Below, in pieces: positions 2,010 through 13,087 of a stretch of 64,000 bases of DNA; position 1 is the first letter of the stretch; every line of letters begins with the position of its first letter. The position numbers and the translations under genes were made by a program. The stretch covers positions 60,282-124,281 of the forward strand of contig NZ_FRAA01000002.1 of NCBI RefSeq assembly GCF_900142205.1. The letters run 5' to 3'. This stretch comes from Reichenbachiella agariperforans (GTDB lineage: Bacteria; Bacteroidota; Bacteroidia; Cytophagales; Cyclobacteriaceae). Under the pieces are notes generated by a model. It saw only the letters and a list, made by a program, of their open reading frames with translations. It had not been told where the DNA came from and did not search any database.

Positions 2010-3419
2010 CTATTTTGTTTCATTGATATTGCTTTGAATAGACCATGCAAAATCTAATTGCACCCAATCATAAAAGATACTGTCGCTCATATCCACATAT
2101 TGATCTGCTGTGTATTTCAACGATTTACCGTTGGTTGCATTGGCGGTTGCCATTGCATGACAGCTCATACAGTTGGTCTGCATCCCGTATTGATAAGAAG
2201 AATCCAGCTTATTCACATCACCAAAAGGAGCTGAAAGACCAGCCTCCAAATAAGGATTATATCCAATAATCGGTTCTACACCTTCATTTGTCCCGTTGGT
2301 AATAGGCTGATTTGGCCACACCATGGCATAGGCAGTAGACACAGCATAGTGAGCAGCAGCTCCATTAAGTCCCTCTGGCCGTAAACCGGCCTCCCAAGCA
2401 GAACTCGGAAAATTTGGAATACTCGGGTCTGTGGCCCAAAAAAATGTCTGCCACGTCCAGTTGCTAATCTCTTTCGTCCCCACATGCATACATATCAGTA
2501 TTGCCAAATCTCCTGATTTAATCTTATCTCCCGTTTGTCCCAGTTGTTGCTTGTTCATATAAGTCGCCGCATCCGTATCTAGACTGTAATGAATAAATTC
2601 GTTCAAATTAACGATCGCACTAGCTGGAGGGGACGTCACGGTACTGTCTACTGGAACAGCTACTTTTCCAGGTGTCTGTAGGTTATTGACATCTACGAAA
2701 ATATAAGCATTCCATGCAGACGGACCATACACTTGTTCCAAACTCTCAGGTTCACCGTGCCAAGCAGGAATTCGGATAAAATCATCACTCACCTGTCCAA
2801 TGAAATACGTCGGTTTGATAGTCACGCTATTGTTAGGGAAGGGAGGGATTTTACCAATACTATCCTTCACTAGCTTTTTAGTAATGCTCGACTGGTTCAG
2901 TATCAAATTTTTAGTAGCAAAACATGCCGCATTCGGGTCATAAGAAACTGACACATAAAAGCCTGGATTATCCTGAATGGCAGAAGTCACGCTCGAACCA
3001 AAATTATGCGTCAACTGGTTCGGGAAATCTAATTTCTCTCTAGTGAACTTAGCATTGGCACATCCACCCAATGTATCTCCATTAGCACATTGAGTAGCGA
3101 TATCTGACACCCCTAGCCATGTCTCATATATGAGCAACGTGTCTGATAGGTTGTACACCTGATCGGAATTAGCCGTTAGGCCTGCCCAAATACCCCATGC
3201 ATGTTTGGTAATACTTTCTGTATCTCTATTGCTCAGCCACTGATAGATAGTCAGGGAGTCTTCAGGGAAATTAAACCCTGAAACAGTTTCTGGCAAAGCT
3301 TGAGGAGTAACACCCGTTACAATTTCACCTGTCTTATCATTGATCATACAGCCCTGAGAGACCACCATCAAAACTATGGACACCAGACCTAGTCGTTTAA
3401 GATTTTTAATTTTCATCAC
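2010..3419 (-). CDS. Lipoprotein with single c-type heme motif
   Basis: 469 residues. The N-terminus has basic residues, a hydrophobic stretch and a lipobox ending S-Q-G-C at about residue 24, so a lipid-anchored envelope protein is expected. Near the C-terminus the segment [10 protein letters not shown] contains one CxxCH motif, the covalent attachment site of c-type heme. No other heme motif is present, and the rest of the protein is not a typical small cytochrome c. I do not recognise the family. It may be an electron-transfer or heme-sensing envelope protein; this is inference. A 7-2-7 operator lies 134 bp upstream and a terminator follows, so it is probably transcribed alone. Confidence 0.7.
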
Positions 3420-3552
3420 TTTATTTATTTTCCTTTAAACTCTCTTATACCCTTTTGACAAAAAACATTTCGCTCTATCTAGTAATAGATTATTTTTCAA
3501 AAGTGACAAGTCTAGCCATCGTATGCATCAGGTATAATAGGTAAACAACTGC

Positions 3553-3570
3553 ATACCCCAATCGAGGTAT
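3553..3570 (-). promoter_or_regulatory. NarL-type 7-2-7 operator, site 2
   Basis: ATACC-N8-GGTAT with perfect outer arms. The plus strand shows TACCCCA, a 2-base gap, and CGAGGTA, so the invariant TGGGGTA heptamer is on the minus strand, the coding strand of the downstream gene. It is 134 bp upstream of the lipoprotein start at 3419. Confidence 0.6.
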
Positions 3571-3590
3571 TTTTTCAAGTCAGTATAAAA

Positions 3591-3652
3591 AAGTCGTCCT
3601 TTTCAAATCAGAAATACTCGCTGGGGCATTTCTGACTTGAAAAGGACGACTT
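3591..3652 (-). terminator. Long hairpin terminator after thaumatin-like gene
   Basis: Two 25-base arms (3591-3615 and 3628-3652) pair at 24 of 25 positions around a 12-base loop. On the minus strand the stem is followed by a T-run (3586-3590 region). This is one of the strongest hairpins in the window and isolates the thaumatin-like gene from the lipoprotein gene downstream. Confidence 0.8.
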
Positions 3653-3667
3653 GCATGATGCGAACAG

Positions 3668-4324
3668 TTACGCTGGTACAGGAGTATTCAAGATGACTTG
3701 TACGACTCCTCCTCTTTCGGAGCGCTGCACATTACAGATTCTCTCTGACTGTGCAGGCCCGATTGGCAATGTCGGACAGGGAGCATCCCCTACCAATCGA
3801 ACACAATCAGTACAGTTAACAGGGTAGACCCCTGGGTTGCCTTCATTCTCCTGCAACCCCCTGTTGTATATTCTAGTGATAGGTGTACTCTCTGGACCAT
3901 AGCTCCAACCTAACCCTTTTTCTACTTTCACCTCAATAAAACAATTGACACCATTGACACAACTGATATCAAATGCTTCGGCACATGGTGAACTAGGATT
4001 GAGCGTAAACTCGGCGATACTCGTCCCTGTTTTGCCATGATGAAAATCAGCACCAGCCACTGGACACTGTGGAGGAATATAGAAGCCAATGTTTCCACTA
4101 AAACACCGGCCCTCTGCATCAAACAATTGTGTTTGATTTGCTCCTAAAGTAAACTTCCCTCTCAAATCATTTACTTTAGTAAGAAACCCAAACTGCCCTA
4201 CGGCAACTGGACTCGGACAGCATTTGTTTTCGCTATTTTCAGCTGCAAAAGTCACATATACTTCCACTGCTTCGTCAGTATTGTTTGTTACTGATAGTTT
4301 TGTATTATTATCGATCGTACTCAT
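3668..4324 (-). CDS. Thaumatin-like cysteine-rich protein without signal peptide
   Basis: 218 residues with eleven cysteines. The segment IAEFTLN...FDISCVNGVN strongly resembles the thaumatin/PR-5 signature AEFTLN...DISLVDGFN. The N-terminus (KLSVTNNTDEAVEVYVTF) fits the first strands of that fold, in which the start reads as a nitrogen- and threonine-rich beta hairpin. Plant and fungal thaumatin-like proteins are secreted, disulfide-rich, and often bind or cleave beta-1,3-glucan. Here no signal peptide is visible, and none appears from upstream in-frame codons. It could stay in the cytoplasm, as PixA-type inclusion proteins do, or leave by a non-Sec route. It is flanked by strong terminators on both sides. 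Family assignment is by motif only. Confidence 0.65.
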   Translation of the reverse strand: MSTIDNNTKLSVTNNTDEAVEVYVTFAAENSENKCCPSPVAVGQFGFLTKVNDLRGKFTLGANQTQLFDAEGRCFSGNIGFYIPPQCPVAGADFHHGKTGTSIAEFTLNPSSPCAEAFDISCVNGVNCFIEVKVEKGLGWSYGPESTPITRIYNRGLQENEGNPGVYPVNCTDCVRLVGDAPCPTLPIGPAQSERICNVQRSERGGVVQVILNTPVPA

Positions 4325-4371
4325 TGTATTGTTTTATGTTTAAAAATTGAATTGACTTTCTGTTAAAAGCG

Positions 4372-4406
4372 AGAAAACCACCAAAACTTCTTTTTGGTGG
4401 TTTTCT
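4372..4406 (-). terminator. Hairpin terminator after AidA/PixA gene
   Basis: Perfect 15-bp arms agaaaaccaccaaaa (4372-4386) and its complement (4392-4406) around a 5-base loop. It lies 23 bp past the stop of the PixA-like gene. The A-rich start and T-rich end make it usable in both directions. Confidence 0.8.
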
Positions 4407-4428
4407 CTATTGATCAAAACACTAGAAA

Positions 4429-4944
4429 TTATCCTTCTACTGTCACTGTAGGATCCCACTGAAAATAACCGTAGACTTCTGGCTCTCCAGAAGCTCCTCT
4501 AGTGTAGAGAGCAAAAACAACCTGAAAATTCTCAACACCTGCAGTAATCACACGTCCTTCATAGAACCAAAACTGTTCTGACCCTATATGTGCGGGCAAT
4601 ACGTCAAAACCCGAAGGGCTGACCCCATTCTTGGTATAGGTAAAACTCATGAAAGGGCTAAAGACTTGATCTCCTCCAAACCTCTTGATCCCGTACACTA
4701 AAATTGCATTCTCAAAATTATCAGAGGCAGATGTTCCATGAAAACGAACATTGTCACCGACCTGAGCTCTAAAATTCAAATCCGCTCCTCCTTGACCAGA
4801 GATAGAGGCTCCATCCGTGACCACCATAAACTCGTATTGGTGACCAATACCAGTAGGAGCATTAGGATCTTGACTTGGTGTTGAAAAATCTCTGATGATT
4901 GCGTCAGTATCGATCGTGATCTGAACATTAATTATATTATTCAT
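4429..4944 (-). CDS. AidA/PixA family inclusion body protein
   Basis: 171 residues from the ATG at 4944. The frame is open to another ATG at 5025, but those 27 residues are lysine-rich and unlike the family, and 5025 lies only a few bases from the promoter element at 5027-5053. Family features are clear: an N-terminal INVQITIDTDAII strand, PSQDPNAPTG, a YEFMVVTDG strand, VGDNVRFHGTS, and the closing QWDPTVTVEG. PixA forms crystalline cytoplasmic inclusions in Xenorhabdus. AidA of Burkholderia and Ralstonia is quorum-sensing regulated and linked to pathogenicity. There is no signal peptide, as expected. A NarL-type operator sits upstream at 5097. A divergent paralog lies at 10088. Confidence 0.85.
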   Translation of the reverse strand: MNNIINVQITIDTDAIIRDFSTPSQDPNAPTGIGHQYEFMVVTDGASISGQGGADLNFRAQVGDNVRFHGTSASDNFENAILVYGIKRFGGDQVFSPFMSFTYTKNGVSPSGFDVLPAHIGSEQFWFYEGRVITAGVENFQVVFALYTRGASGEPEVYGYFQWDPTVTVEG

Positions 4945-5026
4945 AGCAATATTATTTTTTAGTCCCCTACTCTGTTTGCCAATAGGCTTTTCGGGTTTCG
5001 CCTTTGCCTCTTTTTTGATGCGCATT

Positions 5027-5053
5027 GTTTTAAAGACATATCAAAGTTGATCA
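5027..5053 (-). promoter_or_regulatory. Shared promoter element before AidA/PixA gene
   Basis: This 27-bp element is identical at 26 positions to 8087-8113, before the RhiA-like gene, in the same orientation. Its minus-strand CAACTTTG (5042-5049) differs by one base from the Bacteroidota -7 box TAnnTTTG. No -33 TTTG is found 19 bp upstream, which suggests dependence on an activator. The inferred start near 5036 gives a leader of about 90 bases before the ATG at 4944. Confidence 0.6.
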
Positions 5054-5096
5054 TTAGCACACGCTATTTTATCCCCCGTGATAGGGATAATCACAT

Positions 5097-5114
5097 ACAC
5101 CGCATCTGGGGTAC
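5097..5114 (+). promoter_or_regulatory. NarL-type 7-2-7 operator, site 3
   Basis: ACACC-N8-GGTAC, with heptamers CACCGCA and TGGGGTA separated by 2 bases. Its centre is about 70 bp upstream of the inferred start of the PixA-like transcript, a usual activator position. The bases following it (TACTGAC) are also shared with the site at 1836. A weaker palindrome of the same 5-8-5 spacing, ATCCC-N8-GGGAT, lies at 5071-5088 between it and the promoter. Confidence 0.6.
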
Positions 5115-5159
5115 TGACTCACACTAATGTGGTATGGGTGACTATGAGAAGTATCGAAA

Positions 5160-5196
5160 AGAGAGAAGGGTATCTGTATACATACCGCTTCTCTCT
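5160..5196 (-). terminator. Hairpin terminator after endonuclease I gene
   Basis: Arms 5160-5173 and 5182-5196 pair as agagagaag-ggtat with one bulged base. On the minus strand the stem ends in ctctct followed by TTTTCG. It lies 30 bp past the endonuclease stop codon. Confidence 0.7.
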
Positions 5197-5225
5197 ACCA
5201 ATATAGCTGATCAAAAAAATTGTGC

Positions 5226-6071
5226 TTAATTACCCCAAATTCGCTGCACAAAATTGGCAGAGTCTATAAATGGGTTTCTATTGTTTTGTATCAAATAGAC
5301 GGCATTGTTTCGATCTACCTCCTTTTGGCTGACAGGATCTTTTTTATGCCAGCCGAGCAAAAGATCTAAATACCACTGCTGATAAACCGTAGTGTCCGTT
5401 CCATCCAAAACTTGTCCTGCATATAAACTATTGGTATTCCAACTTGCTATTTTATCCTGATAGCGAGTAGCCATATAAAAGTACGTTCTCGCAAAATCTC
5501 CCTTGTATTCATCTATAGGTTCGAATACGATGATATCCTTCCCTAGCTCTTTATTCGTCGATGAATAGCCTAGTTTACTACCATTTTGTGAAGCGTATAA
5601 CTCAGTTTTGTCTGCATTACCAAACGGGTAATTGCTCCGTTTGCTATTGACATAACCGTCAGTTGGATAGATATGAAACAAATCTGTGTACATCGGTTTA
5701 GGTTTCTTATTTTTTGTTGCGCCAAACCAGCTTGCTGGAAACGAATGTTCCCTGTTGTAACAGTCTCCTTCCATTTTATATGTCCCACATTGTGTGACCT
5801 GGTATCCATAGTAATAAGGATTGGGCTTACCAACTAGAGGAGGGAATGAATACATATCCCAGAGCGTATCCCCTTTCATATCTGTCAAATCAAAACATGC
5901 CCATAGTTGACCATAGGTCTTCTCCTTGTGCCCCTTAATGATATTGTAAAGGGTCGTTTTCAATTGATAGCCTGACTCACCTACAGTATTGTCATAATAT
6001 GACTCAGGTGGTTGAGCATAGGTGCCCGTGAGCAGTAGACATACTACTACTGTTGAAAATATACTTTTCAT
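5226..6071 (-). CDS. Secreted endonuclease I family nuclease
   Basis: 281 residues with a signal peptide (about 1-19, ending G-T-Y-A). The central NREHSFPASWFG motif is the catalytic signature of the EndA/NucM/Bsn endonuclease I family, a beta-beta-alpha metal fold that cuts DNA and RNA without strong sequence preference. The following DLFHIYPTDGYVNSKRSNYPFG block also belongs to the family and carries the conserved asparagine and histidine positions. Length fits an unfused enzyme, and there is no sorting domain, so the product may stay periplasmic or leave by another route. Likely roles are nutrient release from extracellular DNA or defence. It lies between the tail-collar and PixA-like genes. 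Confidence 0.88.
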   Translation of the reverse strand: MKSIFSTVVVCLLLTGTYAQPPESYYDNTVGESGYQLKTTLYNIIKGHKEKTYGQLWACFDLTDMKGDTLWDMYSFPPLVGKPNPYYYGYQVTQCGTYKMEGDCYNREHSFPASWFGATKNKKPKPMYTDLFHIYPTDGYVNSKRSNYPFGNADKTELYASQNGSKLGYSSTNKELGKDIIVFEPIDEYKGDFARTYFYMATRYQDKIASWNTNSLYAGQVLDGTDTTVYQQWYLDLLLGWHKKDPVSQKEVDRNNAVYLIQNNRNPFIDSANFVQRIWGN

Positions 6072-6120
6072 GATTTTAAATTTTAAGTTTGTTAATAGAT
6101 TAAGTATCGGGATGAATCAA

Positions 6121-6139
6121 CCTCTCATGATCAGAGAGG
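6121..6139 (-). terminator. Small hairpin just after tail-collar gene
   Basis: Perfect 6-bp arms cctctc (6121-6126) and gagagg (6134-6139) with a 7-base loop, three bases past the stop codon at 6142. There is no T-run on the minus strand, so it may protect the transcript end instead of terminating. Confidence 0.4.
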
Positions 6140-6141
6140 CG

Positions 6142-7128
6142 TCATGCCCATTTAATAGTATAGAGTTCGGAGATATTAGAAGGTCTAGTTTCATTGCCCC
6201 CGGTCATGGTTGTAGACGTTTTACCCTTCCCTACCAAGTTGACAGATGCCTGTCCCACAGGGGTAGCAATCTCCGAGAAAGCTATGGAGTGATTATGCTC
6301 CTTAAATTCCTCTAATTCCAATGTCCCTACATGGTCTCCGCTGACATTAGACGCTCCCCATTTCTGCCTTTGGTTAGCGTCTGGATCGATACTAGCGCCA
6401 TGATTCCATGCACGGCTAAAGTAACCCCTCATGTCTGGCAACAATGACCTATTTTCCCCCTTACCGTATCTATGGTTGAGCACTGAGTCCAAACGTGAAT
6501 AGCCTATACCTAATTCTTCGGCAGATTGACAAAGCGATAGCTCCTGTGCAGGAGGGTTCTCTGTGGCAATATATTGCTTTCGTTCTCCGATCACCCCATT
6601 TACCATACAAGCGAGATTACTCAAAGCAATAGAACCGATATTCGCGTACACTTTGCTGATATCAACAACTACATTTGGCGTACTGCATTCTATTTTCAGT
6701 ATTAGCCCAGTTGCGGCGGCACCAACAGCTAACTGCACTTCCAACTCATAGTCTCCCGCAGCATTCGTACTGCTTTCTTTGGTAACGATACCATCTGATA
6801 GAGAAAGACTGACAGCAGCTTCTGTTTCTAGGTGTACATGTGCTTTGGCCGTAACGGTCTCGCTACTCAATAACTCCTGCCATCTAGGAAACTCGTGTAG
6901 TGCCTGACTCAATACAGCCTGCCCACTAGCTTCAGTAGCAAGCCTGCAACAATTATTACTGGTATCAAGACCCACCGAGCCTTCACCTACAAACACCCAT
7001 CCATCTGGATGCCCATATTCTGCGGGCGAAACATAGTTGCTGAAATACAAAAAATTATAATTGTAGACCAAGTTCAACTGCTGCATAGCGCGTAACGTTT
7101 CTTGAACATACGTAGTGTAATTTTCCAT
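6142..7128 (-). CDS. Orphan phage tail-collar/tail-fibre-like protein
   Basis: 328 residues, no signal peptide. The C-terminal ~120 residues match the receptor-tip region of phage tail-collar proteins: LLPDMRGYFSRAWNHG, a QRQKWG segment, FKEHNHSI and the closing GGNETRPSNISELYTIKW. The N-terminal half (YSNFLYFSNYVSPAEYGHPDGW-like, then a beta-rich segment) resembles the carbohydrate-like part of such fibres. No capsid, tail-tube, baseplate or lysis gene is nearby, so this is not a prophage. It may be a fibre recruited to a contractile particle encoded elsewhere, or a self-assembling adhesin. It lies between the RhiA-like and endonuclease genes, with 50 bp to the latter. Confidence 0.75.
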   Translation of the reverse strand: MENYTTYVQETLRAMQQLNLVYNYNFLYFSNYVSPAEYGHPDGWVFVGEGSVGLDTSNNCCRLATEASGQAVLSQALHEFPRWQELLSSETVTAKAHVHLETEAAVSLSLSDGIVTKESSTNAAGDYELEVQLAVGAAATGLILKIECSTPNVVVDISKVYANIGSIALSNLACMVNGVIGERKQYIATENPPAQELSLCQSAEELGIGYSRLDSVLNHRYGKGENRSLLPDMRGYFSRAWNHGASIDPDANQRQKWGASNVSGDHVGTLELEEFKEHNHSIAFSEIATPVGQASVNLVGKGKTSTTMTGGNETRPSNISELYTIKWA

Positions 7129-7272
7129 CTTAATTAATCGTTTAGATTGATCCCCCTACATCCATAATTAAATGATCTATCACAGTGTCTAAAAAATGAC
7201 AAGAAGCTAACCGCTACATAGTTGCACCAGTAGATCAAAACATGGATTGAGAAAGGAGAGGTAGGTAGATGA

Positions 7273-7300
7273 CAGTACTCAATAGTTACAATGAGCACTG
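7273..7300 (-). terminator. Hairpin after RhiA-like gene
   Basis: Arms cagtactca (7273-7281) and tgagcactg (7292-7300) pair at 8 of 9 positions around a 10-base loop, 30 bp past the RhiA-like stop. No T-run follows, so terminator function is uncertain. Confidence 0.4.
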
Positions 7301-7329
7301 CCAAATTATTTCAAAAGAACATCGGATGA

Positions 7330-7938
7330 TTACCCTACAGTCCAAGTATTATCCTCGTTGAGTGTGACCTCTAGGTTGTACTGGTTGACAGGAAATGCAA
7401 TCTCCTGAGCTGTAGCAGTGATCTTCTCAAGATCCAAAACCTCTCCTTGAGTAAAAGTTCCGAATGTGATCCAATACTTTGGATGAGGAGTAAACTGTAG
7501 TTGCATATTCGGTTGTGAGTTTACCACGAAAGTCCCATTACCAGACATCCCGATTCCTACCGAACATTCGTTGGCACCTACATTCCTTTTTTCATTGATG
7601 TACAAACTGCCATCTTCAGAACCTGCTGTTTGATTTTCAAACGAATAGGCATCCAATGAAGTGTCCTTTATGAAATCTATGGCATTCTTATTGGTAAGGT
7701 CTGCCACCCACGTTTGTGCCGCTTCATATATTATCCCAGGTTTTAGAATTCCCTGTCTAGACCAAGTGTAGCAGTAATCAATTTGCCACTGGAATAAAAT
7801 ATTTGTCGTAGGATAGGCTGACTTTGCAAACCAAGCCAATGACATGACATCATGTACGCCCAAATCTGGGTCTGTCTGATAGATACATACATTTCCCTTT
7901 TGGGAAGAATTGTTTTTAAAATTTAATGAATACTTCAT
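7330..7938 (-). CDS. RhiA-like protein
   Basis: 202 residues from the ATG at 7938. The frame extends to 8022, but the extra 28 residues are low-complexity and the family start MKYSLNFKNNSS fits better. Segments NVCIYQTDPDLGV, DVMSLAWFAKSA, FQWQIDYCYTWS and GILKPG resemble the RhiA protein of Rhizobium leguminosarum and its homologs in Burkholderia and other genera. RhiA is a quorum-sensing controlled protein made in the rhizosphere; its biochemical role is unknown. No signal peptide is seen. The shared 27-bp promoter element at 8087-8113 ties it to the PixA-like gene, and the adjacent AraC-type regulator is transcribed in the same direction upstream. Family recognition is from memory of motifs. 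Confidence 0.6.
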   Translation of the reverse strand: MKYSLNFKNNSSQKGNVCIYQTDPDLGVHDVMSLAWFAKSAYPTTNILFQWQIDYCYTWSRQGILKPGIIYEAAQTWVADLTNKNAIDFIKDTSLDAYSFENQTAGSEDGSLYINEKRNVGANECSVGIGMSGNGTFVVNSQPNMQLQFTPHPKYWITFGTFTQGEVLDLEKITATAQEIAFPVNQYNLEVTLNEDNTWTVG

Positions 7939-8086
7939 CTCATTTAGTTTTAGGTGATATAATTTATTATTGTACTGATTTATCTCGAGTATTTGCTTTG
8001 TTGATTCATGATTTAAAATCAATGTTCAATCTAAGTAGGGCCTGCTCTGATCATATGTCTAGGTTTTAGATTTTATAGTCCTCTTC

Positions 8087-8113
8087 GTTTTAAAGACAAA
8101 TCAAAGTTGATCA
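8087..8113 (-). promoter_or_regulatory. Shared promoter element before RhiA-like gene
   Basis: 26 of 27 bases match 5027-5053, with the same orientation relative to the gene. The minus-strand CAACTTTG is a one-mismatch -7 box. The element lies about 150 bp before the chosen ATG at 7938. No NarL-type 7-2-7 site was found at the position equivalent to 5097, so the RhiA-like gene may use another activator, for example the double AraC protein next to it. Confidence 0.6.
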
Positions 8114-8147
8114 ATAACTCAAGCCCTTACTTGTATCAAATCCGCAA

Positions 8148-8996
8148 TCACATCTCATCGTGTAGCATAAGTTCTTTTTTTAGCCAAGTGCAAAAATTTT
8201 CTTGGCGCTTCTGCTTCTTATAGACCGAAGGCGAGCAACGGTATGTCCCTTTGAAAGCATGAGAAAAATGAGCTTGATCAAAAAAACTAGCTCTATAGGC
8301 AACTGTAGCTATCGATACAGTCTCATCGGCGAGTAACTCTGCCGCATACAAAATTCGAAGCTGTTGTAAAAATCGAATGGGGGTAATACCTAAGCAAGAT
8401 TTTAAATTCCTTATCAATTGGGAAGAGCTCAGATTTAGCGATGCGGCTAGCTCATCTAATACGACTGATTCGTCTCCCAAGTGATCTAGTAGTAACTTTA
8501 AAAACGTACATAGCCATGGCTTTCCTCTAGCTATGGCTAGCATAGAATTTCTCAGTTCTGGAGATGGGGGCATAACCCACAAGACACACGAGGGGCATAC
8601 CTGTTTGGAAGGATCCCTACACATTCGGTAAGCTGAGGGGGAGCATCCATAGCGCGTAACGAAGGCTTTCCAAAAGCTCTGGTAGCTAACAAACCCACAG
8701 TTCCAGGCTACTTGCTTGACAGGGGCATCTCCCTCACGCAACAATACAGATGCCATATGTAAGCGAACCATTAGAATTTGCCTACCTGGCGATACCCCAA
8801 TGAGAGCTGTTAGTTTTCGACTCAGCTGTGCACGGCTATAGCCTACTATCTCAGCCAGCACTTTGACATCAAATCTGGTCTCTCTGGCGTGCTTTTTTAT
8901 GATCCGGGCTACTTCCTGGATAAACATACGGTCAGAGTCGATCTCCGAATTAGGTACTTCGTAGATCGTTAGTTCGGGGCAATCAAGTGTTTGCAT
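8148..8996 (-). CDS. Regulator with two tandem AraC DNA-binding domains
   Basis: 282 residues made almost entirely of two AraC/XylS DNA-binding domains: about residues 27-125 and 165-262. Each ends in the family signature: GFVSYQSFWKAF...GCSPSAYR and ASFFDQAHFSHAF...RCSPSVYK. A 40-residue linker with CPSC joins them. The usual N-terminal ligand-binding or sensor domain is absent, so the protein may be a constitutive binder of two adjacent sites, or act with a partner. The second domain of most AraC proteins is single, so this is an unusual layout. It lies directly upstream of the RhiA-like gene and is the likeliest local regulator besides the two-component system at 10581-13087. Confidence 0.85.
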   Translation of the reverse strand: MQTLDCPELTIYEVPNSEIDSDRMFIQEVARIIKKHARETRFDVKVLAEIVGYSRAQLSRKLTALIGVSPGRQILMVRLHMASVLLREGDAPVKQVAWNCGFVSYQSFWKAFVTRYGCSPSAYRMCRDPSKQVCPSCVLWVMPPSPELRNSMLAIARGKPWLCTFLKLLLDHLGDESVVLDELAASLNLSSSQLIRNLKSCLGITPIRFLQQLRILYAAELLADETVSIATVAYRASFFDQAHFSHAFKGTYRCSPSVYKKQKRQENFCTWLKKELMLHDEM

Positions 8997-9445
8997 GTCT
9001 ACTCAAAATTTTGAGCGACACCAGCGGCAGCCTATCCTATATCACAAATATCGAAGGCATAGTTATCTTGCTAATACGTCATTGTATTTCTTTAAATTAA
9101 TTCATGATGCAATACCAAACATAGCAGGTCGGAGTGCTAAAATTCGGAAGTAAAGGTGATCGCTGGGTCTTGGTTAAAAATGGATTAAACAGGCAATGTT
9201 GTTCAGCGCCCCTCATTCGACACCCCACAGATGAATCAAAAATATTTTAGCCATTCATATGTTATTCGACCAGTACTACACTACTGTAGCTGGTTTTCAT
9301 GACACGCTGCATATGACAAAATCAAAGCACCTAATCAGATATTTATGTGAGGGGTTCCTAGCTCAAGTGATCATACATCAGGCACTTATTTGCCCCTGCG
9401 ACTATACACTGAGATAGTTTTTTGGTTTATTTTCCACCTACTCTA

Positions 9446-10087: not shown

Positions 10088-10588
10088 ATGGGAACATCTT
10101 CAAAAAACATTTTCATTCAAGTTGACACAAACAGCGTCCTTCTTGGATCTCCTTCTTTACAAAGCCCTAGTAGTAGCCTAAACGCTCTAGCTTTACAACA
10201 CACCATGATTTTTAGCCCTGGCTCTATGTCATTGGGAAATTCGGTTACTAATTTCACTATAGGAAGCAATCAAGAAGTAAAAGCAGGATCAATCATATAT
10301 TTCACAATATTACCTCTTCAACTCTACTCTACTCACTCCCTGTATTTCGCGTCTTCAAACCCCATTTCAGCTCCCCAAAATGCAGCACATCCTATTCTGC
10401 CCACCTATTTTAAGATCGTTGACAATAACCCGTTAAGTCTGGGAATGGAGATCACAAATGAATTTCCTCTTAAAGAGAATGTAGAATTTTGCTTAAACAT
10501 CATCCTTGATTATCATAAGCTCAACGGAGACCCAGCTTCTCTTGAGATTTGCATTGACCCCAAACTAAAAGTTGGCCAAGGTGATTGA
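10088..10588 (+). CDS. Divergent AidA/PixA-like protein
   Basis: 166 residues, no signal peptide. I recognise it as a distant paralog of the PixA-like protein at 4429-4944 by collinear motifs: NIFIQVDTNSVL against INVQITIDTDAII; QHTMIFS against YEFMVVT; EVKAGSIIYF against VGDNVRF; and a matching C-terminus, ENVEFCLN...GDPASLEICIDPKLKVG against ENFQVVF...GEPEVYGYFQWDPTVTVEG. Overall identity is low, so a profile search is needed. It is the first gene of an operon with the histidine kinase and response regulator; the kinase frame overlaps its end. It may be a product or a sensor partner of the system. Confidence 0.6.
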   Translation: MGTSSKNIFIQVDTNSVLLGSPSLQSPSSSLNALALQHTMIFSPGSMSLGNSVTNFTIGSNQEVKAGSIIYFTILPLQLYSTHSLYFASSNPISAPQNAAHPILPTYFKIVDNNPLSLGMEITNEFPLKENVEFCLNIILDYHKLNGDPASLEICIDPKLKVGQGD

Positions 10589-12458
10589 TTACTTCAAAAG
10601 TAAAACCATACTGAAAATAGCAATGGTCTACGCCATTGCTATTTTCAGTATCAAACCAAATATTTATGCCCAAAACCTAGAAGCCGCCGATAGCCTAAAA
10701 ATATTGTTAACAGAAGACGATACCCTTTCTTCAACCAATAAACTAATCATCCTTAGTAATCTTTCCCAGCTTTGCAGCTCCCCAGAAGATGTATTGACCT
10801 ATTCCAAACGCCTACTTCGATCTGCTCATGACCATAAACAGACCAATTACGTTGTTAAAGCATATCAGTATCAGGGAGTAGCCTATAGAATGAAAGGCAA
10901 CCTAAAAGAATCACTAAAACAACTTATCAAAAGTGCAGAATTAGCCAAAGAAAATCACTACCTGCAGTTACAAGCAGAGGCATATTTAGAAATCGCCAAT
11001 ACCTACACTGCAAACAGTCAGTTCAAGAACTCTCTATTGTATGAAAAAAAAGCGATCGAAATTTTGCGCAAAGATGGTGATATCAAAAAATTAGCCATCA
11101 ACCTTCTCAATACAGGATACAGCTACTATACTCTGAACTACCTTGATTCTTCCCTAGCTCTCTATAACGAGGCTGAGCCACTGTTTGACACTACAGGTCT
11201 AACCATCGGTAAGGCTTACGTGATAGGCAACCGTGCCTTAGTCTATTGGCAACAAGGTGATGACCAAACTGCCGAACGAGACTTGTTAAAAGCCATCGAC
11301 ATGCTAGAGCCACTCGGAGATCAATTTGGGATGTCAGATTATCACAATCAACTCGGTAGGTTGTATGCCGAGAGAAATGATATAACTTCATCTATTAATC
11401 ATACCAACGCAGCACTCCAAATGGCCAAAGCACTTGACCTCAAGGAGCAAATCCGAGATGCCTCATTACTCTTGTCTCAACTCTACGAAGAGCAGCAAGA
11501 CTATACTCAAGCCTATACCTACCAAACCCAATACATAACCTACAAGGACAGCATAGAAAACACTGAAACCACAAAGAAAATGGCAGACCTACGAACAGAA
11601 TTCGAGGTAAACCAGAAAGAAAAAGAAATTGCCATCTTAGAAAAAAGCCAACTCATGAACCGAACCTACATTATCATAGCAGTGTTTTTACTGGCGCTAG
11701 CTATACTTCTAATCCTCTACTTTCGTCAGCGATTGCACAACACGCGCCTCATGTCAGCCAATGAACGCAAACAGCATGACGAAAAAATAAAAAAACTCCT
11801 CAACACCCAAGAGACCAAAGCACTACAGTCCATGGTAGAAGGCAAAGACCAAGAGCGTAAACGCCTCGCTCAAGAACTGCACAACCATTTCGGTAGCCTA
11901 CTCGCTACCATCAAAGTCAACATCAACGGAATAGAGGAAGAAAGCATCCCTAATCACTACACCTTGACTACACTCGTAGATCAAGCCTGTAACGATATCC
12001 GTAATATGTCGCATTCGCTCAATATGGGCATCTCCGAAAACTTCGGCTTAGTCTCCGCACTAAAAGAACTCTCGGAGCACCTCCGCCAGTCTGGAGACTT
12101 GGAAGTCGAATTTTCAGCATCCATGTGTGGACATGCACTCGCTGCAGACGAAGAGATCACGATCTACCGAATCGTTCAAGAGTTAGTCAGTAACGTACTC
12201 AAGCACTCCCACGCGACCAAGCTCAGTATACTCCTGACCTGCTTTGAGGAGGAACAAATCATGAATATCATGGTACAAGACAATGGCAGAGGGTTTGATA
12301 CCAAAAACAAACCAAAAAGTGGTGGTATTGGAGTCGAAACCCTTAACAAAATGGTGGCAGACAAACAAGGTGACATCAAATTTGACAGCAATACAATAAG
12401 TGGCACTACTGTCATCATAGACTTACCACTATCCTACGAAAACATCGAAGAGTTATGA
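10581..12458 (+). CDS. TPR-containing hybrid-type sensor histidine kinase (HisKA_3)
   Basis: About 625 residues. A signal peptide precedes tetratricopeptide repeats (about residues 60-330), one transmembrane helix (near residues 360-385), a coiled coil, the HisKA_3 dimerisation box with the phospho-accepting His in AQELHNHFG, and a HATPase domain with QELVSNVLKH, DNGRGFD and GGIGVETL. There is no receiver domain. This layout is common for Bacteroidota kinases that pair with NarL-type regulators. Start choice: the GTG at 10581 gives a normal signal peptide; a TTG at 10572 and an ATG at 10623 are alternatives. A perfect inverted repeat (10610-10649) covers the signal-peptide codons. It overlaps the preceding gene by 8 bases and the regulator by 4. 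Confidence 0.9.
   Translation: MIDYFKSKTILKIAMVYAIAIFSIKPNIYAQNLEAADSLKILLTEDDTLSSTNKLIILSNLSQLCSSPEDVLTYSKRLLRSAHDHKQTNYVVKAYQYQGVAYRMKGNLKESLKQLIKSAELAKENHYLQLQAEAYLEIANTYTANSQFKNSLLYEKKAIEILRKDGDIKKLAINLLNTGYSYYTLNYLDSSLALYNEAEPLFDTTGLTIGKAYVIGNRALVYWQQGDDQTAERDLLKAIDMLEPLGDQFGMSDYHNQLGRLYAERNDITSSINHTNAALQMAKALDLKEQIRDASLLLSQLYEEQQDYTQAYTYQTQYITYKDSIENTETTKKMADLRTEFEVNQKEKEIAILEKSQLMNRTYIIIAVFLLALAILLILYFRQRLHNTRLMSANERKQHDEKIKKLLNTQETKALQSMVEGKDQERKRLAQELHNHFGSLLATIKVNINGIEEESIPNHYTLTTLVDQACNDIRNMSHSLNMGISENFGLVSALKELSEHLRQSGDLEVEFSASMCGHALAADEEITIYRIVQELVSNVLKHSHATKLSILLTCFEEEQIMNIMVQDNGRGFDTKNKPKSGGIGVETLNKMVADKQGDIKFDSNTISGTTVIIDLPLSYENIEEL
10610..10649 (+). promoter_or_regulatory. 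Perfect 17-bp inverted repeat at start of kinase gene
   Basis: Arms 10610-10626 (actgaaaatagcaatgg) and 10633-10649 pair at all 17 positions around a 6-base loop. It begins 22 bases after the stop of the PixA-like gene. No T-run follows. In RNA it would form a very stable stem within the first kinase codons and would bury the alternative start ATG at 10623. I infer an attenuator, processing or translation-control site that lowers kinase output relative to the upstream gene. Confidence 0.65.
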
Positions 12459-13087
12459 TAAAGGTACTGATAGTCGACGATCACCCTCTCTTTGCCGAAG
12501 GCATGAAATCAATGTTCAAACCTGGTGACGGTATAGAAGTGGTTAGTCAGACAATAAACGGTCACGAGATTCCCTCCATTCTTGACACTACAGAGGTCGA
12601 TTTAATCTTGATGGACATAGACATGCCTGTCATCGATGGCATAGCAACCATGGAACTAATCCTATCCAAGGGATACGATCTACCTATACTGATGCTCACC
12701 ATGCATCAGTCAATGAAACAAATCAAACGAGCATTGGAAAAAGGTGCCCAAGGGTATATCCTAAAAGATGCACACAAGAGCGAACTCATAGAAGCAATCA
12801 CACTAACCAGTCAAAGAAAAAATTATTTCCATCCCAAAATCAACAATCAAATATTTGACTATTTCCGAGGCAAGCGCTCCGTCAAATCAGATATGCCTGA
12901 ACTCTCCGAGAGAGAAAAGGAAATCATCCAATGTCTAGCCAAAGGGCAAAACAGCAAGGCTATTGCCAATACACTCCACATCAGTGAGCATACCGTAAAA
13001 ACTCACCGCCGTAATATTATGCATAAAATGAACGTAAAAACCTCCGCAGAACTAATCAACACCTGCCTCGAAAAAGGGATTATATGA
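12455..13087 (+). CDS. NarL/LuxR-family response regulator
   Basis: 210 residues. The receiver domain (1-120) has the acidic pair D8-D9, the phospho-acceptor D54 in LMDIDMP, and K104-region KDAHK. The C-terminal LuxR-type helix-turn-helix (about 148-205) has LSEREKEIIQCLAKG and HTVKTHRRNI. The ATG overlaps the kinase stop (ATGA), so the two are translated together. NarL-family regulators bind inverted TAC-type heptamers. Five such sites in the preceding 11 kb, one before this operon, make this protein the best candidate for their binder; that link is inference. Confidence 0.93.
   Translation: MIKVLIVDDHPLFAEGMKSMFKPGDGIEVVSQTINGHEIPSILDTTEVDLILMDIDMPVIDGIATMELILSKGYDLPILMLTMHQSMKQIKRALEKGAQGYILKDAHKSELIEAITLTSQRKNYFHPKINNQIFDYFRGKRSVKSDMPELSEREKEIIQCLAKGQNSKAIANTLHISEHTVKTHRRNIMHKMNVKTSAELINTCLEKGII

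Follow-up and report, generated by a model that had tools for sequence, protein, structure and literature searches.

Several bacterial receptors operate with a partner whose gene lies beside their own. LuxP-LuxQ and TorT-TorS are receptors with a co-encoded binding protein, and RRNPP systems are pairs of a TPR protein and a peptide. The pair examined in this study, consisting of a small gene and the gene for a TPR receptor, is similar to these systems in that the partner gene adjoins the receptor gene. To our knowledge, a partner of the fold described below, three interchangeable outputs and a terminator within the receptor gene are features of none of them.

The protein SO1698, which is titled an aspartic peptidase, undergoes self-cleavage. 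SO1698 and the DP-EP family (PF08985) resemble the small protein in fold (Z 10.3) and in having Asp-Pro near the C-terminus, whereas there is no profile match between them and the Ser at position -2 is not conserved in the small-protein family. The PixA/AidA family (PF12306) shares with the small protein its predicted fold, a VDT-like start and a DP in the last strand. Unlike these proteins, the small protein has no PF12306 match and is tied to receptors. MakC and MakD of Vibrio cholerae are the closest solved relatives of the small-protein branch, but their genes belong to a toxin operon whereas the small gene belongs with a receptor. Both are reported to be cytosolic accessory proteins of this operon, with function unknown (PMC11484084). 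Bnr1, a Burkholderia PixA protein, has been reported as a DNA-mimic regulator (PMC9060813), and thus offers a precedent for a regulatory role in the PixA fold. The fold and the outputs are already known, and what appears to be new is a co-encoded receptor partner with a PixA/Mak fold; no description of the pairing was found among titles and abstract starts of the open-licence literature.

The small gene and its operon

The window is a 64,000-nucleotide stretch of the Reichenbachiella agariperforans genome (contig NZ_FRAA01000002.1, positions 60,282 to 124,281). An initial annotation of this stretch reported a PixA-like gene encoded together with a sensor histidine kinase. The features of the window that are most relevant to this arrangement are as follows.

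10088 to 10588, plus strand: partner gene for the small protein P0001 (166 amino acids) of predicted PixA/MakD fold, assigned by ORF, fold, profile and synteny
10556 to 10573, plus strand: codons of the C-terminal DPKLKV strand, in which D157-P158 is the motif common to nearly all members
10581 to 12458, plus strand: receptor composed of a signal peptide, a TPR region, a transmembrane helix and a histidine kinase of HisKA_3 type (proposed start GTG; TTG 10572 opens the longest ORF)
10608 to 10651, plus strand: 19-bp perfect inverted repeat with a loop of 6, in the signal-peptide codons just 3' of the small-gene stop (z -4.1)
12455 to 13087, plus strand: LuxR-type response regulator (Response_reg 1.4e-28, GerE 4.8e-20)
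4429 to 5025, minus strand: PixA proper (PF12306, E 3.8e-42), a candidate regulated product of the system

The ORF at 10088-10588 is real, with an in-frame TAA immediately 5' of its ATG and homologues in the same position elsewhere. The kinase ORF begins at TTG 10572 or, with greater likelihood, at GTG 10581, and the stop of the small gene overlaps this start. No signal peptide is apparent by eye in the 166-amino-acid product. The receptor matches Pfam models for TPR_12 (1.5e-12) and HATPase_c (3.2e-11), and it carries an LHN box along with a HisKA_3 match that is under the cut-off (0.0084). Its signal peptide and transmembrane helix were assigned by eye, the alignment of receptors supports this layout, and by inference the TPR region is periplasmic. 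A HATPase-bearing kinase and an adjoining response regulator are thus both present, as is characteristic of a two-component system.

Pairing of the small gene with TPR receptors

P0001 used as a single query against 59 genomes matched only itself. Homologues of the small gene were instead reached via kinase synteny, the single-protein search having failed. The closest kinase relatives in the genus are those of Reichenbachiella faecimaris (59%) and R. versicolor (52%), and both have immediately 5' of the kinase a short gene that ends in a DPKLQ strand. A first set of loci, drawn from 8 genomes of the genus and 295 of the family, has the small gene upstream in 22/22 kinase loci, including that of the window. 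D157 and P158 are invariant in 22/22 proteins of this set and, besides the initial Met, are the sole residues there that never vary.

A second set was prepared by a receptor-alignment scan of named genomes, from which the best 80 of 195 loci were used. Bacteroidota contribute 78 of these 80, and L063 and L071 are labelled as Pseudomonadota MAGs. Addition of the window gives 81 loci, of which 80 are testable after L056, with merely 205 bases upstream of its receptor, is left out. The two sets overlap in part, and so their counts are not additive. A small gene of 107-212 codons is located directly upstream of the receptor in 78 of the 80 testable loci, a proportion that is not valid for all TPR receptors because the loci (best 80 of 195, plus the window) were picked by TPR conservation and most small genes by motif. 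The two loci without it (L085 and L093) both have other outputs. The initial annotation had proposed looking for the same gene next to kinases in other genomes, and had considered the arrangement unexpected. The gene is present as proposed, and in the loci examined its upstream position is the rule rather than an oddity, with cyclase receptors included. Among the 77 small genes from loci other than the window, overlap with the longest receptor frame is seen in 22, and in 48 the stop is no more than 30 bases from that frame.

Most small genes of the second set were chosen by the presence of DPx[LIMVF] in the last 30 residues, and this motif is therefore not independent evidence of membership. 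It occurs in 76 of the 78 small proteins, in 75 of them within the last 30 residues, and is followed by a median of 7 residues after the DP. This tail is conserved (K, I/L, V/I) and the body of the protein is variable. In the window, a similar end motif is found in 5 of 98 open frames, two of which are the small protein and PixA. Three genes (L069, L070 and L102) were added by hand, and all match profile A7. Evidence that depends less on the motif comes from profiles: 74 of the 78 small proteins match one of five family profiles at E 0.01, as do 9 of the 13 that lie outside the four receptor-linked profile builds. Members L040, L042, L050 and L051 match no profile and are included by position and end motif. 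With regard to a possible copper site of cupredoxin type, the small proteins contain a median of 2 His and 1 Cys each. As judged by eye, 67 of the 78, the window's included, have no export signal. The other 11 have an apparent signal (8 from cyclase loci, 3 from HisKA loci, 0 from HisKA_3 loci) and would consequently sit on the TPR side.

Searches in other directions place bounds on the pairing. The genome that contains the window yields 32 receptor-profile matches at 1e-20, a number that includes pieces of one gene (L149, L156) and TPR-only matches rather than whole kinases, and the small gene is upstream of only 2, the two best. A reverse search of 247 genomes with profile A7 gave 4 matches (18 of 23 candidates scored) and did not return an own-genome copy detected otherwise at 2.1e-8. 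Three of the matches are directly 5' of a signal-peptide-TPR protein, one of these being the L102 locus, and the fourth precedes a second small homologue.

Some loci are more elaborate. The second partner-receptor pair in the window's own genome (L165:4332-6642, contig C7) joins a kinase of HisKA type to a small A6-like protein whose C-terminus reads TLDPRVDVKGP. In the small partner at L102:9412-9864 (the same locus as L167), the DPKISV strand is followed by an apparent membrane helix at the C-terminus, and a second small homologue is located upstream at 8984-9331. Additional long genes whose starts look like those of receptors flank the pair on both sides in L053, L071 and L075, and L053 and L075 carry a second small homologue ~2.7 kb upstream.

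The receptors have a common layout of signal peptide, TPR and transmembrane helix, followed by one of three outputs that were classed by motifs. These are HisKA_3 (18 loci, plus L043 assigned by eye from DLHNHFG), HisKA (36, one untestable) and class III cyclase (24), the last confirmed by Pfam PF00211 in two loci, L082 and L111 (5e-60 and 2e-56). The small gene is present before 24/24 cyclases and 35/35 testable HisKA kinases. A regulator-sized gene with a matching start adjoins the receptor in the window, where it was checked with Pfam, and in all 17 loci L035-L051. On a quick tree of the TPR region the output changes ~10 times, an approximate number given the many weak branches, and the small gene is kept throughout. 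Its retention across three outputs suggests that the partner goes with the TPR sensor.

Sequence variability within the HisKA_3 operons differs greatly among their products. Mean identity over 18 operons (window plus L035-L051, 153 pairs) is 0.27 for the small protein (0.23 when shuffled), 0.46 for the TPR region, 0.60 for the kinase and 0.68 for the regulator. Small-protein identity has a Spearman correlation of 0.27 with TPR identity and 0.22 with that of the kinase domain, and because these correlations are weak, co-evolution is not shown and is not used here as support. The small-protein family is thus very variable, and is apparently undescribed.

The inverted repeat in the window has no U tract on the sense strand, and its core is single-copy in the genome (≤3 mismatches). 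Across the set, 27 of 81 receptors have terminator-like hairpins with a U tract in the opening 140 bases of their frame, by a criterion that was fixed after examples had been viewed. They occur in 28 of 603 signal-peptide or membrane genes of the same loci, and in 10 of 170 such genes within operons. On the other strand the numbers are 5/81 receptors and 16/603 control genes. In 20 runs of synonymous-codon resampling the count averaged 6.2 and never exceeded 11, versus 27/80 observed, an excess indicating that the signal appears to be selected at the nucleic-acid level. We read these hairpins as putative terminators of the small gene that are placed inside the signal-peptide codons of the receptor, and that would keep the receptor scarce. 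By class they are found in 14/36 HisKA, 9/24 cyclase and 4/18 HisKA_3 loci. Given their position in the first codons of the receptor, many HisKA and cyclase loci probably produce more of the partner than of the receptor. Almost none of the loci in the window's clade show this sign (1/15). Such a buried terminator would be a simple device for fixing the partner-to-receptor ratio.

Relation to PixA, MakC/MakD and SO1698

Individual database searches with the small protein were uninformative as to its family. No NCBIfam model matches the 166-amino-acid product at E ≤1, its Pfam match is sub-threshold, no family is significant, and a search of PDB sequences with P0001 alone gave 1 match at chance level. 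A death-like domain (bDLD1, E 0.11) was considered for this product and dropped, because the match falls short of the cut-off and a beta sandwich is predicted. Pfam searches with 22 family members likewise gave no family with a convincing score. PF12306 has no match to P0001 up to E 1, and so the Pfam cut-off for PixA proper is not reached, whereas 7 of 20 relatives reach this model at E ≤1 (best 2.4e-8). PF08985 is listed neither for P0001 nor among the families of the 20 relatives. A BLASTP comparison of the small protein with the window's PixA, as a pair alone, gave E 5.4, which is no better than chance. The two proteins do have common ends, with IFIQVDT versus INVQITIDT at the start and IDPKLKV versus WDPTVTV at the end. 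The shared motif order proposed in the initial annotation is accordingly genuine at both ends, with a slightly different spacing from the pattern it gave.

Profiles of subfamilies were compared by using hhalign, where A4 represents the window's type, A6 an intermediate family and A5 PixA. A4 and A6 are linked at 96.2% (96-97% across settings), A6 and A5 at 97.5-97.7%, and A6 and A7 at 99%. The direct A4-A5 comparison is weak, at 24.8% (P 7.8e-4) and 3.1% under other settings. Controls with reversed and shuffled targets (six pairs, 20 shuffles each) reached a maximum of 8% over the six pairs and of 0.5% for A4-A6 and A6-A5. In addition, 9 receptor-linked proteins were matched directly at E ≤0.01 by a PixA profile built for this study. 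These comparisons strongly support homology of the small protein to PixA via the intermediate family.

AlphaFold models were produced for the window protein (pLDDT 78.7, 8 sequences) and for a short member, L111 (pLDDT 93.3, 20 sequences). With Foldseek, the top PDB matches of the window model are PixA structures (8.7e-6 to 4pib). Its Z scores are 13.4 with 8rqy, 13.3 with 6tct (MakD), 12.3 with 4lzk, 11.7 with 4q52, 11.1 with 4pib and 10.3 with SO1698, and the best folds outside PixA, Mak and SO1698 begin at Z 6.5. For the two models together, MakC/MakD, PixA and SO1698 rank first (Z 8.5 to 13.4), and other folds are at Z ≤7.0, including plastocyanin with the L111 model (Z 7.0, a cupredoxin-like sandwich). 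A search of a viral structure library gave no match at E ≤0.001. By sequence, the best matches of the A6 profile among solved structures are Vibrio MakC/MakD, namely 8rqy (1e-9) and 6tct (7.5e-8); the former is assigned to MakC, since it does not have the MakD sequence. These data show that the predicted fold of the small protein is the PixA/MakD beta sandwich. The structure and profile check that was suggested for the 'PixA-like paralog' of the initial annotation therefore came out in its favour, with a model of the PixA/MakD fold and indirect profile links, and with the Pfam PixA model silent. Membership in the PixA superfamily stands, and the protein belongs to a separate receptor-linked branch; it is not a near-duplicate of the PixA at 4429.

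Neighbouring genes and candidate roles

HisKA_3 operons are often adjoined, mostly divergently, by genes for proteins without a signal peptide as judged by eye. The identified neighbours are as follows, in a purely descriptive listing.

L035 and L051, divergent: PixA
L036: ricin-type lectin
L037: mannan-binding MVL
L038: GH72
L041, same strand: PA-IIL lectin
L046: hemopexin
L050: DUF1842

The neighbours in L039, L040, L044, L047 and L048 have no Pfam match at E 0.01. The pattern does not extend to L043, L045 and L049, where different genes occupy this position, or to L042, where only a fragment is present. In the window, PixA is 5 kb from the operon with other genes between, and two further genes on the minus strand have relatives near equivalent operons.

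6142 to 7128, minus strand: protein with a sub-threshold phage-collar-like stretch (44% identical gene near the equivalent operon of L040)
2010 to 3419, minus strand: protein without a Pfam match (63% identical gene near the equivalent operon of R. versicolor, L051)

The minus-strand cluster at 2010-8996 contains PixA along with a sub-threshold thaumatin-like protein (3668-4324), a gene at 5226-6071 that presumably resembles an endonuclease, the collar-like protein at 6142-7128, a leaderless product at 7330-8022 reminiscent of RhiA, and a regulator (8148-8996) that contains two HTH stretches of AraC type. A 16-bp perfect stem at ~4320-4440, in scan windows that span the intergenic stretch from PixA to its neighbour, is perhaps the PixA terminator.

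We propose that the small protein is probably a dedicated partner of the TPR sensor, in the role of ligand or co-sensor. The PixA-fold partner, encoded directly before the receptor, would set the activity of the TPR sensor, and would do so from a position of excess where terminator-like hairpins are present. The low hairpin count in the window's clade leaves the odds of this proposal unaffected, because partner excess is not its ground. In the HisKA_3/LuxR version, nearby effector-type genes whose products lack a leader, for example PixA at 4429, may be under the control of the output. The initial annotation had suggested that the small protein could be a signal partner or a product under tight control. 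Because pairing is the rule in the receptor loci examined, cyclase receptors included, the signal partner is favoured by this evidence, short of proof, and tight control is less favoured. A point against the partner role is that most small proteins are leaderless by eye whereas the TPR domain is expected to be periplasmic. A leaderless partner might meet the TPR region through release by lysis or non-Sec export, or it might act on the cytosolic side of the receptor. A more specific form of the proposal is that PixA-fold proteins, mostly intracellular, are specific ligands of periplasm-facing TPR receptors and are sensed on leaving cells such as lysed kin, with the signal passing to kinases or cyclases and, in the window, switching on lectin- and PixA-type effectors. 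We regard this form as speculative and distinctly improbable.

The PixA fold would also suit an effector or inclusion product like PixA, encoded next to its regulator and uninvolved in sensing, an explanation we judge to be unlikely. PixA proper and lectin-type genes adjoin several HisKA_3 operons, the terminators suggest high small-gene expression in the other classes, and MakC and MakD have the same fold and are cytosolic accessory proteins of a toxin operon (PMC11484084). However, the small gene also precedes all of the cyclases and testable HisKA kinases, and among those loci a regulator-sized gene adjoins only in L067 (HisKA) and L097-like (HisKA_3) cases. Comparable effector neighbours were not seen by eye in the portion of loci inspected. 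Moreover, the small gene is always upstream, in most loci in overlap or near contact with the receptor gene, whereas the effectors differ from locus to locus in type and orientation. The same close spacing, together with the mostly leaderless state of the proteins by eye, is compatible with a cytosolic protein that chaperones or stabilises the receptor as it is made. Loss of makC or makD alters the levels of neighbouring Mak proteins, an effect that the authors attribute partly to polarity (PMC11484084). Export signals in 11 of the 78 small proteins, as judged by eye, argue against such a function, and a chaperone diverging faster than its client would be unexpected. We therefore assign this explanation a low probability.

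The constancy of the Asp-Pro motif raises the further prospect of a self-cleavage site as in SO1698 (DP-EP), from which a freed short peptide would be read by the TPR region in an RRNPP-like manner. A TPR receptor with an adjoining small gene does resemble RRNPP pairs, DP is the most constant motif with its median of 7 residues following, and the model matches the fold of SO1698 (Z 10.3). Among SO1698 structures, wild type, K98A, Y26F and P115A align only to residue 116, and D116A, P117A, S114A and D37A align to 123-124. Nevertheless, a conserved tail on a variable body is the reverse of what is expected for a specific pheromone. S114 of SO1698 is not kept, as Ser is found at that distance in 8 of 75 small proteins and Cys in P0001, and 8rqy and 4lzk align through the DP end (to residues 131 and 184). 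The DP-EP profile matched nothing in 148 Bacteroidota searched, a result that is uninformative because no positive control responded. Taken together, peptide release by cleavage seems to us very doubtful.

If the small protein is a partner of the TPR sensor as we favour, it is a candidate input for a Bacteroidota receptor family with kinase or cyclase outputs. Should the ligand be released from cells, the pair would represent a new class of bacterial receptor-partner pair and a kin- or damage-sensing system. Structures have been solved, or regulation is known, for PixA, AidA, MakC and MakD, with no agreed function in the literature examined, and a receptor-tied branch of the PixA superfamily would give this fold a testable function.
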